This document shows positions 46,420 through 53,826 of a stretch of DNA of 64,000 bases, piece after piece. The position numbers and the translations under genes were made by a program. The stretch's first letter is position 1, and every line of letters starts with the position of its first letter. This stretch comes from an uncultured Pedosphaera sp. (GTDB lineage Bacteria; Verrucomicrobiota; Verrucomicrobiia; Limisphaerales; Pedosphaeraceae), in the NCBI GenBank assembly GCA_903918755.1, contig CAIXFN010000018.1, positions 1-64,000 on the forward strand, given 5' to 3'. A model generated the notes under the pieces. It saw nothing but the letters and a program-made list of their open reading frames with translations. It ran no database searches and had not been told where the DNA came from.

Positions 46420-46632
46420 GACCGGGGAAAACATTACCCGCGGCGGACATTCCCGCAAGCCGGAATGCGCCCACGCCGGCCGGCAGACACGGCCCGCCCG
46501 GGTAACCGGCACTGAGGGCACAATGGGTCTTCGGGGGAGGGATTTTCGAAAACGCGCGAAGCGCGAGGAAATAAGGGGGTGGATTTTTGGTCGATACTGC
46601 GCCATAATGCCGACAACGAATTAATCATTACT

Positions 46633-46956
46633 ATGAATCTGATCAAAATTACCGGATTGGGATTGTTACTCGCCGGCTGTCTGGCCGGCCCCATGGCGAA
46701 AGCCGACGACGCCGCGGCGAAACCGAAGCCGTACACGCTGAAAGTCTGCCCGGTTTCCGATGAAAAACTCGGCGGGGACATGGGCGAGGCTTACACCTTC
46801 GTTTACGGCAAAACCAAGGACAGCGCCGGACGCGAAATCAAGCTGTGCTGCAAATCCTGCCTGAAGGATTTCGAAAAGAGCCCGAAGAAATTCCTCAAGA
46901 AGATTGACGCCGCCGAAGCCAAAGAGGCCAAGGCCGCCAAAGAAAAGAAGAGCTGA
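46633..46956 (+). CDS. Small Cys-rich lipoprotein, YHS/TRASH-like
   Basis: A 107-residue exported protein. The N-terminus has a lipobox, LLAGC with lipid-bearing Cys16. The remainder has Cys39 in KVCPVSDEKLG and LCCKSCLKDF with Cys72, Cys73 and Cys76, then KSPKKFLKKI and a Lys/Ala-rich tail (EAKEAKAAKEKKS). The CPVS...CC.SC...F...P..F pattern resembles the metal-binding YHS/TRASH-type zinc-ribbon-like domains, often attached to copper or heavy-metal handling proteins. No partner gene is adjacent. A terminator follows. Confidence 0.78.
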   Translation: MNLIKITGLGLLLAGCLAGPMAKADDAAAKPKPYTLKVCPVSDEKLGGDMGEAYTFVYGKTKDSAGREIKLCCKSCLKDFEKSPKKFLKKIDAAEAKEAKAAKEKKS

Positions 46957-47438: not shown

Positions 47439-50400
47439 TTATTTGTCGTGCATGTGCTCGTGGTCAGCCGCCGGCGTGGGCAGCGGGGCGTCCGGATGAG
47501 CCAGGAGGTAGGCATCGATATCCCGGGTCACAACCAGTTGCCCCCACATCGTCAGGGCATGGCCGGGGAAGGTGCAGACGAATTCCTCGATGCCTTCCGC
47601 CGTGGGAGCGGTCATCTTCAGAGTTTCGCGCTGTCCCGCACCCAGCAATTTGGTGGCGGCAATGATGTCCGGGGTATTCGGCACATAGGGGCGTCCTTTG
47701 CTGTCGAGCTCATCGGGCTTCATCGTGGCGGCCAAGGTTCCGACCTTTTCCCGGGTGCCGGGTTTCACCACGGTGAGGTTATGCGGCATGAAGTCGCCGT
47801 TTTCGAAAATGATTTCGAAGGGTTTGCCGGCTTCCACGAGGATGCGGGGGGTGTCGTAGCGCATTTGTTCTCGGACGGTCTGGATGACGAAGACGGGCAC
47901 GCGCAACTGACGCAGTTCGGCGCGGGCGGCGGTCGCTTTTTCCACCGGCAGGAAGCTGGTGAGATCGGAAGCGAATTGGACGATCTCAATGAATTCCTGG
48001 GCGGTGCGTTTATCAGCAGGAACTTGTTTGGCCCAATTCACCAGAGCGCTGGCAGAGGCGGCAGCCTCGGCTTTCGGCCAGGCGGCACGGGGCAAGGCCC
48101 GCAGACCACGGGCGGCGGTGGCCACTTCCTCCCCCTTCACAATCAAGGAAGTCAGGCTGAAGAAAACTGCGGCCGGTTCATGGTTCATGCTCACAATCGC
48201 GCGGATGGCCGCACGACGGACGACGCTGGAGGGATCCCCGGCCATGTTGAAACGGGAAACGGGGGTGGGAGCGGCATTGCCGGTCCTCTTGAAGACTTCG
48301 CCGCGACCGGCATCCAGCACAGTGAGGGTGAAGTTGGCCAGACGGTTGCCCAAATCACCGTCGGTACGGTTCCAAATGGCAATGGAATCGATCGGGTATT
48401 CGCCGCCCAAATCCACTTCCCACCAGGGACTTTGGACATTCTCGCGGGTGTGGGTGGAAGTATCCGCGCCATAAGCCCCGTCGGTGCGACCATCAATCGC
48501 CCGGGAGGCAATGCCGCCGTTCGAGGTGTTGATCTGCCGCGCCTTGCCCTGGAGGGCAATATTTTTGCCGTCACTGATCACTTCGACTTCGGCCAGGGTG
48601 AGGGTCCCCTTGTCGGGAAGTTCCACGCGGACAAACCGGCCGACGTTGGCCGCCGCTTTGGTGGCGGCGCTGGCACCCGGAATCGGATCCGCCAGCAAGG
48701 GCTTAACCCGGTCATAGGCCTTGGCGCGGAAGTCGGGATCACTCAGGAGCGGAATCCCGTTCAGCAATTCGGCCAACCGGGCCGGCTTCGGGGCGGTTTC
48801 CTGCCACACCGCGGTGAAGGAGTCGTCCGCGAGGGCGAGGGCAGCCCAGGCGGCCTGGTGCAATTCCGGCGATCCCGGTTGGGCGGTCAGTTTGGCGACC
48901 CGTGCGCGCATGGCCTTCAATTCATCCGGGGATTGGAAAACGAGCATCCGGGCGAGACTGCCCGCGGCGGCGGCATCGGTGCCAAGTTTACCCTCGATGG
49001 CCTCCAGGGCGACTTCGGTCCGGGTGACGTTGCGTTCCTTGGCAATCGCCTGCAAGGCCACCAAACGGTCGGCATCAGCGGCATCGTTGCGCATGAAAAT
49101 GGCCGGCAACACACTGCCACTGCGCGGCAGCTTCAACAAATCGGGGGTGGAGATATTTTGGAGCAGGTAATCCAGGCCAGCGGGATTATCCGTGGCGATC
49201 GGCTGACCCGCGGCCAGCGCCTTGCGCCAGAAAGGATCCAGCTGCTTGAGCGTTTCGTGCAAGGTGTAATCGAGATAGTAGTCCAGCGGATGCTTGAGAA
49301 TGGCCAGGGCGACTCCGGCGGCTTCACCGGTGCGGAAGAAACTCGCGGCGCGCACGGCTTCCAAACGGACCCGGGGGCTCTCATCCAGGGCGGCCTTCGC
49401 GAACAGGGCGAGGGCATCGGGGACGCGGTCACGCCAGTAGCACAGCACATGGGCGGCGGCGGCGCGGGCGCGCGGTTCGGGGGAGGCCAGGACGCGCTTG
49501 AGCAAGTTGACGTCCACCACGTTCATCCACTGATGCACCCAGAGGGCTTCGAGCACATTGTGCTCATAACGGGCGTCTTTCCGGTCGAGACCCGCCACCC
49601 AGCGGTTGACCTCGGCGATCACCTGGGCTGGTTCGTGTTTGCCCAGTTCCACTTTGGCCAGGGTCCGGGTCTGGTCTTCCGGGGCCTGCAACAAGGCCAG
49701 CAGCGCAGGAATGGTTTGTTTGTCGATCTTCGGCGGTTTGACGGCGGGGATGCCGTCGTAGGTGATCCGGTAGATACGGCCATGATCATGATCGCGATTC
49801 GGATCCCGCAAATGATGCTGCATGTGACCGATGATCGGGTTGTGCCAGTCCAGCACGTAGATCGCACCGTCGCCACCCACGTTCACGCCGATGGGGCGGA
49901 AGTTCGGGTCGCTGGAGCTCACCAAGTCTTCAATGGTTTCACCCTGCAAACCAGAACCCTCTTCGGTCACCTTGACCATGTACACGCCCTGGAAGCTGAT
50001 GCAGTTGGCGTTCAGGAAATTTCCCTGCATTTCGGCGGGAAAAGCGCGGCTGGACAAAATGCCAGTGCCACCGCACGGACGGGAGGGACGGTTCCAGAAC
50101 TCCTTCATCCCATTATGTTTGGCGGGGTAATCCAAGTGACCGCTAAAGGCGGGCCCGAAATAATTCGCGTTGCCGGTCGCGTCGGTGATGATGTCGTTAC
50201 CCCAGTAATCGAACACCCGACCGTGCGGGTTGGCAAAGCCGTAGGCCACATAAGTTTCAAAACGGCCGGTGCGCGGCTCAAAGCGATAAATCGCGCCGTC
50301 ATTGTTGCGCAAGGGACCATTCACGGTTTCCAACTGGCTGCGGTGGAACACACCGTCACTCAGATAAACCGCGCCGCCGGGGTCAAGGACGAGGGAATTC

Positions 50401-51905
50401 GCCGTATGATGGGAATCCGCGGAATCCAGCCCCATCACCACACGTTCCTTCGTATCCGCCTTGTCGCCACCCTTGCTGTCCCGGACGTACCAAAGATCGG
50501 GCGCCTGCATCAGGAGGATGCCGTCCTTGTAGAACTGGAAGCCGGTCGGCGCATTCAAATCGTCAATGAAATGGGTGCATTTATCGGCGACGCCATCGCC
50601 GTCGGTGTCTTCGAGGATGAGGATGCTATCGCCTTTTTTGCTGTCGGGACGGCGCTCGGGATAATTCGGCCAGACTGAGACCCACAGGCGGCCCTTAGTA
50701 TCCCACGCGGTTTGCACGGGCTTGGCCAGTTCGGGGAACATTTCCTCGCTGGCGAACAGGTTCACCGTCATTTTGGCGTGGACCTTCATTTTGGCGATGG
50801 CCTCTTTGCCGCCCAGGAATTGGAAGGAACCGTCCGCATTCTGACCGCGTTCGTTGGTTTCGACTTTGGTCAGCGCAGGTAGATTGGAATCATCGATCTT
50901 GAGGTCGCCGCCCTTGGCGACGGCCCAGACCCGCTGGTCACGGTTGGCAGTAATGACATCACGCTGGGACATTTCCTCCTGCATCACCTTGAAATTGGAG
51001 ACATAAGGAGCCGGGGCATTGCGGTCGCTGATGAAGCTGCCCTTGGAGGGCTGGTAGGCCAGGGCGGAACGACCGCCATAAACGTTGTAACCGTCCACGG
51101 TCCGGTAACGGCCGTGCCACTCGGCGTTTTTCTCATTGATCGCCGAACGGAGTTTCTCGAAGCCGCCCGCGGGCAACTCAGTGCTGGCCTTGGGGGATTG
51201 GCCGGCGAACAGGCCCTTGAACATGACATCGGCCAGGGCGCGGTCACCGGCTTCACTCAAGTGCAGGCCGTCAATGGTGAGGGATTGGTGTTGGGCGGCG
51301 GCGGCGGCGTATAGCTGGAGGGAAGGCTCGAACAAGTTGACGAACAAGACCCCGTCGGCCGCGGCGACTTCGGCCATGGCGGCGGTGTATTCCCGTAAGT
51401 TGGGATTGTTCGCGGTCGCATCGTCGAAATTCAAATCCTGCACCCGCTCATTGGCGATCGGGGAAAACAGCACGACGCGGGTCTTCCCGTGGCCGGAAAA
51501 ATCCTTGGCTTGGGTTTCCTTCACATATTTGTCGAGGTCGGCCTTAAACTGGTTGATGCCTTCATGGCCCTTGAAAGATTCATTGAAACCGAAGAAGGCA
51601 AACACCACATCGGCCTTTACCCGGCGCAACCATTCATCCGGCGTGCCGAAATTTTCCGAGCGATGGCGGATGGTGATTTCATCACCGGGAACGGCCAGAT
51701 TACGGAAGACCAGATTGGCATCCGGGAATTTGGCGGTGATGAGGGTTTCGAGCCAGCCGGTGTGCTGAAAGCGATCCGGGAGTTCGTTGCCGACAATGGC
51801 GATGTGCTCGCCGGGCTTGAGTTCAAGCTGCGCAGGTGGTTGCTGCGCGCGAACGAAGGACGCTCCGGCCAGCGCCAGGGCTAGTACCAGTATTCGGATT
51901 TTCAT
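47439..51905 (-). CDS. Giant secreted SGNH hydrolase/propeller/HEAT/discoidin/cupredoxin protein
   Basis: A 1488-residue exported protein (signal MKIRILVLALALAGASFVRAQ). In order: an SGNH/GDSL-like hydrolase domain (about 25-265, with IAIVGNELPDRFQ and DGLHLSEAGDRALA); a beta-propeller of the 'PVC-type membrane-bound dehydrogenase' kind (about 370-770; DTDGDGVADKCTHFIDDLNAPTG split over the window is its hallmark); HEAT-like helices (about 780-1090); a discoidin-like domain (about 1130-1250; SPWWEVDLGGEYPIDSI); more helices; and a C-terminal plastocyanin/azurin-like domain with type 1 copper ligands His1375, Cys1444, His1449 and Met1453. The common C-terminal haem c domain is absent and copper may replace it. 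Start ATG 51905. Substrate unknown, probably glycan-related. Confidence 0.85.
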   Translation of the reverse strand: MKIRILVLALALAGASFVRAQQPPAQLELKPGEHIAIVGNELPDRFQHTGWLETLITAKFPDANLVFRNLAVPGDEITIRHRSENFGTPDEWLRRVKADVVFAFFGFNESFKGHEGINQFKADLDKYVKETQAKDFSGHGKTRVVLFSPIANERVQDLNFDDATANNPNLREYTAAMAEVAAADGVLFVNLFEPSLQLYAAAAAQHQSLTIDGLHLSEAGDRALADVMFKGLFAGQSPKASTELPAGGFEKLRSAINEKNAEWHGRYRTVDGYNVYGGRSALAYQPSKGSFISDRNAPAPYVSNFKVMQEEMSQRDVITANRDQRVWAVAKGGDLKIDDSNLPALTKVETNERGQNADGSFQFLGGKEAIAKMKVHAKMTVNLFASEEMFPELAKPVQTAWDTKGRLWVSVWPNYPERRPDSKKGDSILILEDTDGDGVADKCTHFIDDLNAPTGFQFYKDGILLMQAPDLWYVRDSKGGDKADTKERVVMGLDSADSHHTANSLVLDPGGAVYLSDGVFHRSQLETVNGPLRNNDGAIYRFEPRTGRFETYVAYGFANPHGRVFDYWGNDIITDATGNANYFGPAFSGHLDYPAKHNGMKEFWNRPSRPCGGTGILSSRAFPAEMQGNFLNANCISFQGVYMVKVTEEGSGLQGETIEDLVSSSDPNFRPIGVNVGGDGAIYVLDWHNPIIGHMQHHLRDPNRDHDHGRIYRITYDGIPAVKPPKIDKQTIPALLALLQAPEDQTRTLAKVELGKHEPAQVIAEVNRWVAGLDRKDARYEHNVLEALWVHQWMNVVDVNLLKRVLASPEPRARAAAAHVLCYWRDRVPDALALFAKAALDESPRVRLEAVRAASFFRTGEAAGVALAILKHPLDYYLDYTLHETLKQLDPFWRKALAAGQPIATDNPAGLDYLLQNISTPDLLKLPRSGSVLPAIFMRNDAADADRLVALQAIAKERNVTRTEVALEAIEGKLGTDAAAAGSLARMLVFQSPDELKAMRARVAKLTAQPGSPELHQAAWAALALADDSFTAVWQETAPKPARLAELLNGIPLLSDPDFRAKAYDRVKPLLADPIPGASAATKAAANVGRFVRVELPDKGTLTLAEVEVISDGKNIALQGKARQINTSNGGIASRAIDGRTDGAYGADTSTHTRENVQSPWWEVDLGGEYPIDSIAIWNRTDGDLGNRLANFTLTVLDAGRGEVFKRTGNAAPTPVSRFNMAGDPSSVVRRAAIRAIVSMNHEPAAVFFSLTSLIVKGEEVATAARGLRALPRAAWPKAEAAASASALVNWAKQVPADKRTAQEFIEIVQFASDLTSFLPVEKATAARAELRQLRVPVFVIQTVREQMRYDTPRILVEAGKPFEIIFENGDFMPHNLTVVKPGTREKVGTLAATMKPDELDSKGRPYVPNTPDIIAATKLLGAGQRETLKMTAPTAEGIEEFVCTFPGHALTMWGQLVVTRDIDAYLLAHPDAPLPTPAADHEHMHDK

Positions 51906-52023: not shown

Positions 52024-53688
52024 TCAATGCCCGGATTGGAGCAAATCCCCGAAGGCCGGGAGGAGGGAGTATTTCATTTGCCAGGGGGTATACATGAAGC
52101 CACGCAGCTGGGGAGTTTGGGCCCCCAATTTCATCCAACTTTTAACCTCCGCCAGATCATCGGCGTCGTAATAGCAGGCCACGAGGGTCGCAAACCCGCG
52201 GCCGGCAAAGAACTCCAGGCTTTTCGGACGCGGTTCCCCACCCCATACGGCGATCACCAGATCCTTGGGTACGTGATCCCAGGAGCCGGTGAAATCCCCC
52301 CGGGCCAGATAGTAATTTCCGTGGGCGTTGTGGTTGGGGTCCAACATGTCCGACCAGACATAAACCCGGGTCGCCGGGCTATACCGCCGGATGGCCTTCG
52401 CCTGGGTGGTCACGCATTCTCCCAGCAGTTCCCCCAGGTTGCGCCCGGCGCACGCCCGGCACGTGCCCGCCATGCGCACTTCGTCCATGTTCAGCAGGAC
52501 CCGCCGGGGATGCACCTGCTCCGCCAACAGGCGGGCTTCGTGGTCAAATATTTCCGCCACGGCCGGCTCGGCCATGCAAACGGTCACCTGGGAGTCGTTC
52601 AGGATCAGCGAATGATACCAACTTACCCGCAGCGCCGCGCCTTCCGTCAACCGGCCCCCAGGCAGGACCTTCAAAGTGGCGGCCGGGACTTCATCCCGCC
52701 ACGGACTCAGGAGCGAGTTATCAAACGGGGCGTAATCCTTCCCCTCCATGTAGGTGGTCAAGCCATCGCGGCTGCGGACGGTGACCGGGGTACCCGGCCG
52801 GCGGAGGGCATTGACCGGCCCTACTTCCTCAACCCGCCAGTCATCCAGCCACAACTTGCCGGATTTGCCGCCCCACATGCCCGCGTACACCATGACTTTC
52901 TCCCGTTCGAGGGAATTAAAAAGGAACGAAAGCTTCCGCCAATCGGCGGTGGACTCCAGATTGAACTGCCGGGGCGCCAATTCCTGGTCGCCGGCGAGGA
53001 TCATCGTTCGGAAGGCCCCCGCCGGGGCGAGCCCTGCGGTTTTCACCCAAAGCGTGACCCGATAGCAACGGTGTGGCACCACGCGAATCTCCTGCATGAT
53101 CCGGCCATGGCCATGCTCGTTGGCAGTAAAATGCTCCATCCGCAAAGACGCCTGTCCGCCATGCTTGACCTGGGTGTCCACGAAACTAATTTCCCCCGGC
53201 TGATCATGAAAATTGAAGCCTTTGAACTGGTTTCCTTTGAAATCCTCAAACCCGCCGTTCACCAAGAGCGAGTCAGAGGTCCCTGCGAACTGCGCCCGGC
53301 CATCGCGCACCACAAAAGGGGCATCCTGCACCGGCAACCCTTCGGCCAGATTGTGGTCGTGCGCCAGGACGCCGCCGCCGTACCCCACAGAAAAGACGGC
53401 GGGAATCAACTCCATGCCATTCCGCTCACAGGCTTGTTGGATCTGTCCCAGTCGGTGGAAATAGTCGGGTGACTGCCGGCACAAGGTGTCCATTCCGGAA
53501 GAAAGCACCGCGCCATTGATGCCGTGCTTCCCGGCGGTGTCCAACACCCGGGAAATCGCGGTCACGTCCTGGTCCTTATCGAGGCCCCAGCCGAAGAGCC
53601 AGACGAAGCGATCGGGGTAGGGTTCGGCGGCGGGAGCCGAAAAGGCCAGCAGGGTGAGCAGACAGCCGGCGGAAAGGGCGTGTTTCAT
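52024..53688 (-). CDS. Secreted glycosidase-like protein with inserted CBM-like domain
   Basis: A 554-residue exported protein (signal MKHALSAGCLLTLLAFSAPAA). The N-terminal region (about 20-110, RFVWLFGWGLDKDQDV, GINGAVLSSGMD) and the C-terminal half (about 350-554, RRVLLNMDEVRMAGTC, VWSDMLDPNHNAHG, VIAVWGGEPRP) look like the two parts of a TIM barrel resembling GH20-type or related glycosidases. Between them, about 130-280, is a beta-sandwich like a carbohydrate-binding domain (SLLVNGGFEDF, CYRVTLWVKTAGLAPAG, GKLWLDDWRVEEV). The active-site acid could be in NMDEVRM. Starts at 53688 and 53694 are possible. The gene family is not certain. Confidence 0.7.
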   Translation of the reverse strand: MKHALSAGCLLTLLAFSAPAAEPYPDRFVWLFGWGLDKDQDVTAISRVLDTAGKHGINGAVLSSGMDTLCRQSPDYFHRLGQIQQACERNGMELIPAVFSVGYGGGVLAHDHNLAEGLPVQDAPFVVRDGRAQFAGTSDSLLVNGGFEDFKGNQFKGFNFHDQPGEISFVDTQVKHGGQASLRMEHFTANEHGHGRIMQEIRVVPHRCYRVTLWVKTAGLAPAGAFRTMILAGDQELAPRQFNLESTADWRKLSFLFNSLEREKVMVYAGMWGGKSGKLWLDDWRVEEVGPVNALRRPGTPVTVRSRDGLTTYMEGKDYAPFDNSLLSPWRDEVPAATLKVLPGGRLTEGAALRVSWYHSLILNDSQVTVCMAEPAVAEIFDHEARLLAEQVHPRRVLLNMDEVRMAGTCRACAGRNLGELLGECVTTQAKAIRRYSPATRVYVWSDMLDPNHNAHGNYYLARGDFTGSWDHVPKDLVIAVWGGEPRPKSLEFFAGRGFATLVACYYDADDLAEVKSWMKLGAQTPQLRGFMYTPWQMKYSLLPAFGDLLQSGH

Positions 53689-53826
53689 AACCATGGTGCG
53701 GTTCAGGGAAATTGATGGGAGGAGCATAGCGCCTTTCCAGCGTGGTCAGCAAGCCTGCGGGAGCGGGCCAAAGAGGCCCGGCTTTTCCCTCGAATCCGGG
53801 GGCGCGAGCTGCTACGCTGCGGGAAG

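Follow-up and report, generated by a model that had tools for sequence, protein, structure and literature searches.

Among described systems, the Coprinopsis cinerea pyranose dehydrogenase CcPDH carries an AA8 cytochrome b, an AA12 PQQ propeller and a CBM1 on one chain; it oxidizes L-fucose and needs its own cytochrome domain for electron transfer to LPMOs (PMC5960967). The PQQ-binding residues of CcPDH include Arg430, Asn431 and His363, of which His363 corresponds to His144 of sGDH, and some bacteria take up PQQ from outside (PMC6881789). A bacterial family defined by NCBIfam TIGR02604 ("PVC-type heme-binding CxxCH protein") and Pfam DUF7133 has a propeller, HEAT repeats and a C-terminal electron carrier, in that order; our search of the open-licence literature found no biochemistry of DUF7133 proteins. 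Azurin genes have already been published from Verrucomicrobia (PMC8779525), in an article whose main text contains neither the word "fusion" nor the word "membrane-bound", and a literature search limited to open-licence articles returned no paper on a DUF7133-cupredoxin fusion. Finally, F-type lectins contact fucose through a His-Arg-Arg triad embedded in the motif HX24RXDX4(R/K) (PMC5712786).

The window analyzed here, a 64,000-nucleotide stretch of DNA from an uncultured Pedosphaera sp., holds a gene whose product resembles each of these systems in part. The gene is an uninterrupted frame of 1488 codons running from ATG to stop (Table 1). The initial annotation had read five kinds of domain on this one chain, and Pfam matches all five above their curated cut-offs, in the order GDSL/SGNH (residues 49-222), DUF7133 (best stretch 367-581), HEAT_2 (801-876), F5/8-type-C_2 (1135-1200) and Copper-bind (1345-1459). 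Judging from a signal peptide recognized by eye, the protein is probably secreted and periplasmic or located at the cell surface. An antisense open frame of 1076 aa (47448-50678, plus strand) overlaps the gene and is most likely a mirror of the coding strand or an effect of composition.

Table 1. Features of the window gene, and ORFs of related loci that carry both a cupredoxin and a CxxCH motif
Feature	Coordinates	Strand	Basis
Whole gene, 1488 aa	47439..51905	minus	ORF and relatives
Probable Sec signal peptide, residues 1-20 (...SFVRA, then Gln21)	51846..51905	minus	Read by eye
SGNH/GDSL-fold domain, residues 30-235	51201..51818	minus	Pfam PF13472, fold comparison, motif alignment
Glu41 codon (SGNH nucleophile position)	51783-51785	minus	Motif alignment
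DUF7133 propeller, residues 366-735	49701..50810	minus	PF23500 222.8 bits, TIGR02604 194.4 bits, fold match to AA12/sGDH
His499-His500, at the catalytic His region in the alignment with PQQ sugar dehydrogenases	50406..50411	minus	hhalign, conservation
First HEAT-like helical array, residues ~732-1084	48654..49712	minus	HEAT_2 801-876 and model helices
Discoidin-like/F-type-lectin-like domain, residues 1085-1210 (His1152, Arg1180, Arg1188)	48276..48653	minus	phmmer, triad 26/26
Second, short helical array, residues ~1225-1334	47904..48233	minus	Model helices; HEAT match 1220-1240 below cut-off
Cupredoxin domain, residues 1335-1462	47520..47903	minus	PF00127, auracyanin/azurin by sequence and fold
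Copper ligand codons His1375, Cys1444, His1449, Met1453	47781-47783, 47574-47576, 47559-47561, 47547-47549	minus	
His-rich tail HEHMHDK, residues 1482-1488	47442..47462	minus	Sequence; variable among relatives
L209 cupredoxin + CxxCH ORF	L209:2-2209	minus	Motifs; reaches edge of fetched stretch
L046 cupredoxin + CxxCH ORF	L046:792-2861	plus	Pfam
L047 cupredoxin + CxxCH ORF	L047:1523-2854	plus	Motifs

The chain belongs to the DUF7133 family (222.8 bits against a cut-off of 27) and passes TIGR02604 (194.4 bits against 122.2), with propeller, HEAT array and C-terminal carrier in the family order. The haem c motif of the TIGR02604 name is absent from the whole chain, which has no CxxCH and five cysteines in all; the name is therefore unfitting. 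The window protein departs from other members of the family in having blue copper for haem c, and SGNH-fold and lectin-like domains in addition.

The C-terminal domain carries a predicted blue (type 1) copper site. The ligands named by the initial annotation lie exactly where it had placed them: Cys1444, His1449 and Met1453 within C-T-F-P-G-H-A-L-T-M, which has the azurin spacing C-x4-H-x3-M, and His1375 upstream. All four are kept in each of the 95 distinct cupredoxin domains of related ORFs, a set found with a model of the same family. The nearest solved structures by sequence are auracyanins and azurins, and structure prediction, which the initial annotation had suggested as a check, returned, in a model of residues 366-1488, a cupredoxin fold closest to the same proteins (auracyanin 6kol at Z 18.3, with 118 residues superposed at rmsd 1.6 A; azurins, Z 16-17). 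Together, the fold match and the spacing suggest that the four ligands cluster. With auracyanin and azurin the domain shares the fold and every ligand; in contrast to them, it is fused to the end of a 1488-residue chain and stays below the cut-off of the azurin equivalog TIGR02695 (28.1 against 105.1 bits). Tails resembling HEHMHDK follow the cupredoxin in part of the closest relatives and are absent in others; the tail may aid copper loading.

The combination of domains is widespread in Verrucomicrobiota and inherited. In other genomes, 17 further genes repeat the order SGNH, propeller, cupredoxin and are 45-82% identical to the window protein where aligned, and 15 of these also have the discoidin-like domain; because same-order genes recur so often, a chance fusion is excluded. 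A genome scan located 17 loci in Verrucomicrobia records, 14 of which match nearly the whole query. Within the host's own family, five of eight genomes, its own among them, match at E 1e-100; one of the five (L051) matches over residues 22-914 only and has CxxCH in place of copper. At 1e-8 a cupredoxin profile matches 66 of 387 genomes of the phylum, many of them through short stand-alone azurin-like genes. Across 56 places with longer frames taken from this survey, copper is combined with a propeller match of any length in 47 ORFs (23 genomes); in 31 ORFs (19 genomes) the match spans 200 residues or more. Cupredoxin ORFs of 506-921 aa with no propeller match occur at L161, L163, L164, L175, L179, L181, L183, L192 and L198. 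Draft genomes supply many of these relatives; 52 regions were taken from the 87 matches listed (141 genomes).

That PVC relatives commonly end in haem c and this protein in copper, as the initial annotation held, is borne out by the host itself, where copper stands in the place of haem c, a well-supported correspondence. The genome yields 29 DUF7133 matches, two of them within the window gene, and a single Copper-bind match. Its 28 DUF7133 places reduce to 24 usable ORFs once L102, L106 and L107 (short match) and L108 (no match) are set aside; L102 and L108 both contain CxxCH. Behind the propeller, 21 of the 24 have CxxCH, which is what "haem" means in our counts, two have neither carrier, and one, the window ORF, has the cupredoxin. 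Over all loci we classified 126 propeller ORFs, counting identical ORFs once and first removing those with a propeller match shorter than 200 residues: 67 end in a cupredoxin, 51 have CxxCH behind the propeller and 8 have neither or are cut off, proportions that describe a sample gathered by copper, SGNH and own-genome searches and are not family-wide rates. Among four CxxCH ORFs submitted to Pfam, Cytochrom_C exceeds its cut-off in L218, L219 and L051 and does not in L092.

The two carriers have, by the propeller phylogeny, been exchanged at least three times. For alignment and tree building, rows shorter than 300 residues were removed, which left 123 of the 126; a quick tree of these, rough and with many long branches, has 10 changes of the copper label, at least 7 of them forced by well-supported branches. 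Removal of rows lacking SGNH and of seven near-duplicates left 91 SGNH-propeller rows for a careful tree, in which there are 4 copper/haem changes, at least 3 of them forced by well-supported branches; a single change occurs in 0% of 200 bootstrap trees from the same set. A single copper clade, with all 58 copper rows held together, was rejected (p-AU 1.6e-106). The haem-tailed L218 and L219, both from one genome, fall within a set of six copper and two haem rows with support 100/100 and adjoin one copper row at 99/92; on this tree, haem-tailed proteins nest inside a copper clade.

Some loci appear to keep the two carriers together on a neighboring frame. In L209 the SGNH-propeller ORF ends with no carrier; a cupredoxin motif followed by CxxCH lies on the ORF that comes next on that strand. 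In L046 a two-carrier ORF, with Copper-bind and Cytochrom_C both above their Pfam cut-offs, lies behind a propeller fragment. These ORFs and that of L047 are apparently a carrier subunit holding both metals. The following ORF in L251 contains only CxxCH and has a start that, by eye, resembles a signal peptide. The split at any one of these four loci could be a sequencing error, since the frames come from draft assemblies. In two further SGNH-propeller ORFs of the window type (L206 and L214), neither the ORF nor, by eye, the downstream frames contain a carrier.

We posit that the window protein is a secreted DUF7133 electron-transfer protein whose propeller oxidizes a sugar or glycan and passes electrons to the built-in C-terminal blue copper, a reading to which we assign a probability of roughly 0.55. 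The substrate would most likely be a sugar or the end of a glycan; electrons would travel from the propeller to the blue-copper center, which would hand them to another carrier, and in some relatives haem c adjoins that center. The F-type-lectin-like domain and the degenerate SGNH-fold domain would most likely hold carbohydrate, perhaps fucose-containing, rather than cut it. The PQQ-contacting Arg is missing in all 67 copper-tailed proteins, so that oxidation and cofactor are inferred, as are the dehydrogenase identity of the propeller, its substrate and the direction of electron flow.

The propeller fold fits PQQ sugar dehydrogenases best, as far as predicted models can tell, and a shared fold shows no function. 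In a first model (residues 22-780; mean pLDDT 76, and below 50 in residues 553-612, which include Ala558 and Asn559), the propeller matches the PQQ domain of CcPDH (6jt5) at Z 21.9, the Trichoderma reesei AA12 enzyme at about 21 and sGDH (1cq1) at 19.7. CcPDH thus shares with the window protein the propeller fold as well as the plan of a single chain combining a carrier, a propeller and a carbohydrate-binding module; it differs in that its haem b is N-terminal and in having the PQQ Arg430 where the window protein has Ala. A second model (residues 366-1488; pTM 0.53), which does not fix the distance or arrangement of propeller and cupredoxin, gives sugar dehydrogenases at Z 16.2-17.5. The propeller profile found no clear relative among PDB sequences, its matches being mostly antibody chains. 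Against five GSDH proteins of the host, taken from twelve matches in that genome, hhalign gave E 4.5e-8; in this thin alignment the catalytic His (His144 of sGDH, His363 of CcPDH) is matched by His499-His500, give or take one column, the conserved Asn by Asn559, and the Arg that contacts PQQ (Arg228 of sGDH, Arg430 of CcPDH) by Ala558.

These positions bear on the alternative that survives best, in which the propeller is a binding or scaffold element with no redox chemistry and the whole protein an extracellular relay or docking platform that presents its carrier on a carbohydrate surface and feeds, for example, copper enzymes. Possible, if on balance unlikely, such a role would agree with the absence of the PQQ Arg from all 67 copper-tailed rows (3 of 50 haem rows have Arg there), with the resemblance of two other domains to binding modules, and with the Z of ~18 that the fold comparison gives for hedgehog-interacting protein, whose propeller serves binding. 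It would also agree with the genomic search for PqqE, run without a positive control: the host has five matches, none above the cut-off (best 56 against 381 bits), and 14 control genomes likewise have none above it; a PqqC search was uninformative, its control matching nowhere. Against a scaffold stand the best matches of the first model, which are sugar dehydrogenases, and the retention of Asn559 in 67/67 and of His500 in 63/67 copper rows, a pattern more like that of an active site.

The propeller could instead be a hydrolase of the lactonase/SMP-30 type, the carrier serving something else. Ordered by Foldseek E-value, luciferin-regenerating enzyme comes just before sGDH, lactonases reach Z ~17 in the first model, and in the second the sugar dehydrogenases hardly rise above 2p4o, a lactonase-family propeller at 16.3. 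We nevertheless consider a hydrolase clearly unlikely: Z values in the first model are 19-22 for sugar dehydrogenases and ~17 for lactonases, and hydrolysis would leave unexplained the carrier borne by 118 of the 126 classified propeller ORFs.

Quite improbable, in our estimate, is a cupredoxin that stores or senses copper and carries no electrons. A His-rich tail, present in the window protein and part of its relatives, would suit such a function. The recurrent interchange of cupredoxin and cytochrome c in one position, and the ORFs that combine copper with haem, point to electron transfer instead.

The N-terminal domain is an SGNH fold by profile (PF13472, 56.1 bits against a cut-off of 32.9) and by structure (BT4096 at Z 21.9 in the first model), and we read it as degenerate and probably sugar-binding. 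In SGNH block numbering, block I of the window protein has Glu41 at the nucleophile position, where the esterases BT4096 and Axe2, alike in fold, have their catalytic Ser. The 18 copper-tailed rows of the window type have Glu, Gly, Ala or Thr there and none has Ser; Thr is not known as an SGNH nucleophile. Serine is found in the haem-tailed L051 and in 7 of the 38 rows of a wider set that have a residue at this position (7 of its 45 copper rows are gapped), so the loss of serine is not universal. Asn108 of block III is present, and the Asp and His of block V vary among relatives. An esterase function of this domain was rejected on the replacement of the catalytic Ser. The proposal of the initial annotation, in which one chain would deacylate a glycan through an N-terminal esterase and simultaneously oxidize it through a dehydrogenase with copper as acceptor, is thus highly improbable: a fold match to esterases such as Axe2 (Z ~17) and the presence of Asp212 and His215 speak for it, and Glu41, the lack of Ser throughout the window type and, in 11 of the 45 rows of the wider set, another residue than His at the block V His position speak against it.

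The discoidin domain of the initial annotation stands as a Pfam match, and its label can be narrowed to F-type-lectin-like. The best PDB sequence matches of the entire chain are F-type lectins (phmmer; 3cqo, E 7.7e-22; 4gwi, E 2.1e-17), among them FBP32 and streptococcal fucolectins such as Sm-hPAF of Streptococcus mitis, and the fucose-contacting triad, here His1152, Arg1180 and Arg1188, is kept in all 26 copper-tailed proteins that have the domain. The likeness to these lectins thus consists of sequence match and triad. The window domain differs from them in spacing, reading HX27RXDX5R, which is longer than the published motif, and in sitting between the helical arrays of an electron-transfer protein. 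In the phmmer alignment, the S. mitis protein of known structure likewise reads RXDX5R. Seven of the 26 proteins have Gly in place of the motif's acidic residue. Elsewhere in the host genome (C112), a PSCyt1-PSCyt2-PSD1 protein (L113:1532-5104, minus strand) shows 43% identity to the lectin-like domain over one stretch.

Gene neighborhoods were compared in 19 loci, with flanks of unequal length, and no immediate neighbor is common to the relatives compared. On the same strand, a 567-aa gene (52024-53727, minus) starts 118 bases upstream; it has no Pfam match at 0.01. A small gene convergent with the window gene (46579-46956, plus) has a weak TRASH-type metal-binding match below the cut-off. 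Neither gene has a match in the compared loci of relatives. Across the 19 loci, an OprB porin is common to the window and L112 only, and the genes at 56.6-60.2 kb to the window and L037 only; we therefore claim no operon partner.

More broadly, and at well below even odds, we propose that Verrucomicrobiota possess secreted carbohydrate dehydrogenases with a plug-in carrier (copper in some, haem c in others, a separate subunit bearing the two in others again) at the end of one catalytic core that uses PQQ without the Arg or another cofactor, the window type being aimed by its fucose lectin. DUF7133 proteins are numerous in these bacteria, with 28 places in this one genome, and the fact that one core naturally bears copper in some proteins and haem in others is indirect evidence of redox chemistry in the family. 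A copper-tailed protein that passes the NCBI model for a heme-binding CxxCH protein would be misnamed by automatic annotation. If this broader reading is true, such enzymes would parallel, with copper, the fungal cytochrome-propeller-CBM enzyme, which oxidizes L-fucose and feeds LPMOs. The fucose type of the lectin domain, taken together with the L-fucose activity of CcPDH, suggests which substrates to try first, as a lead only, and the blue color of the copper site would make the redox role testable without prior knowledge of the substrate.
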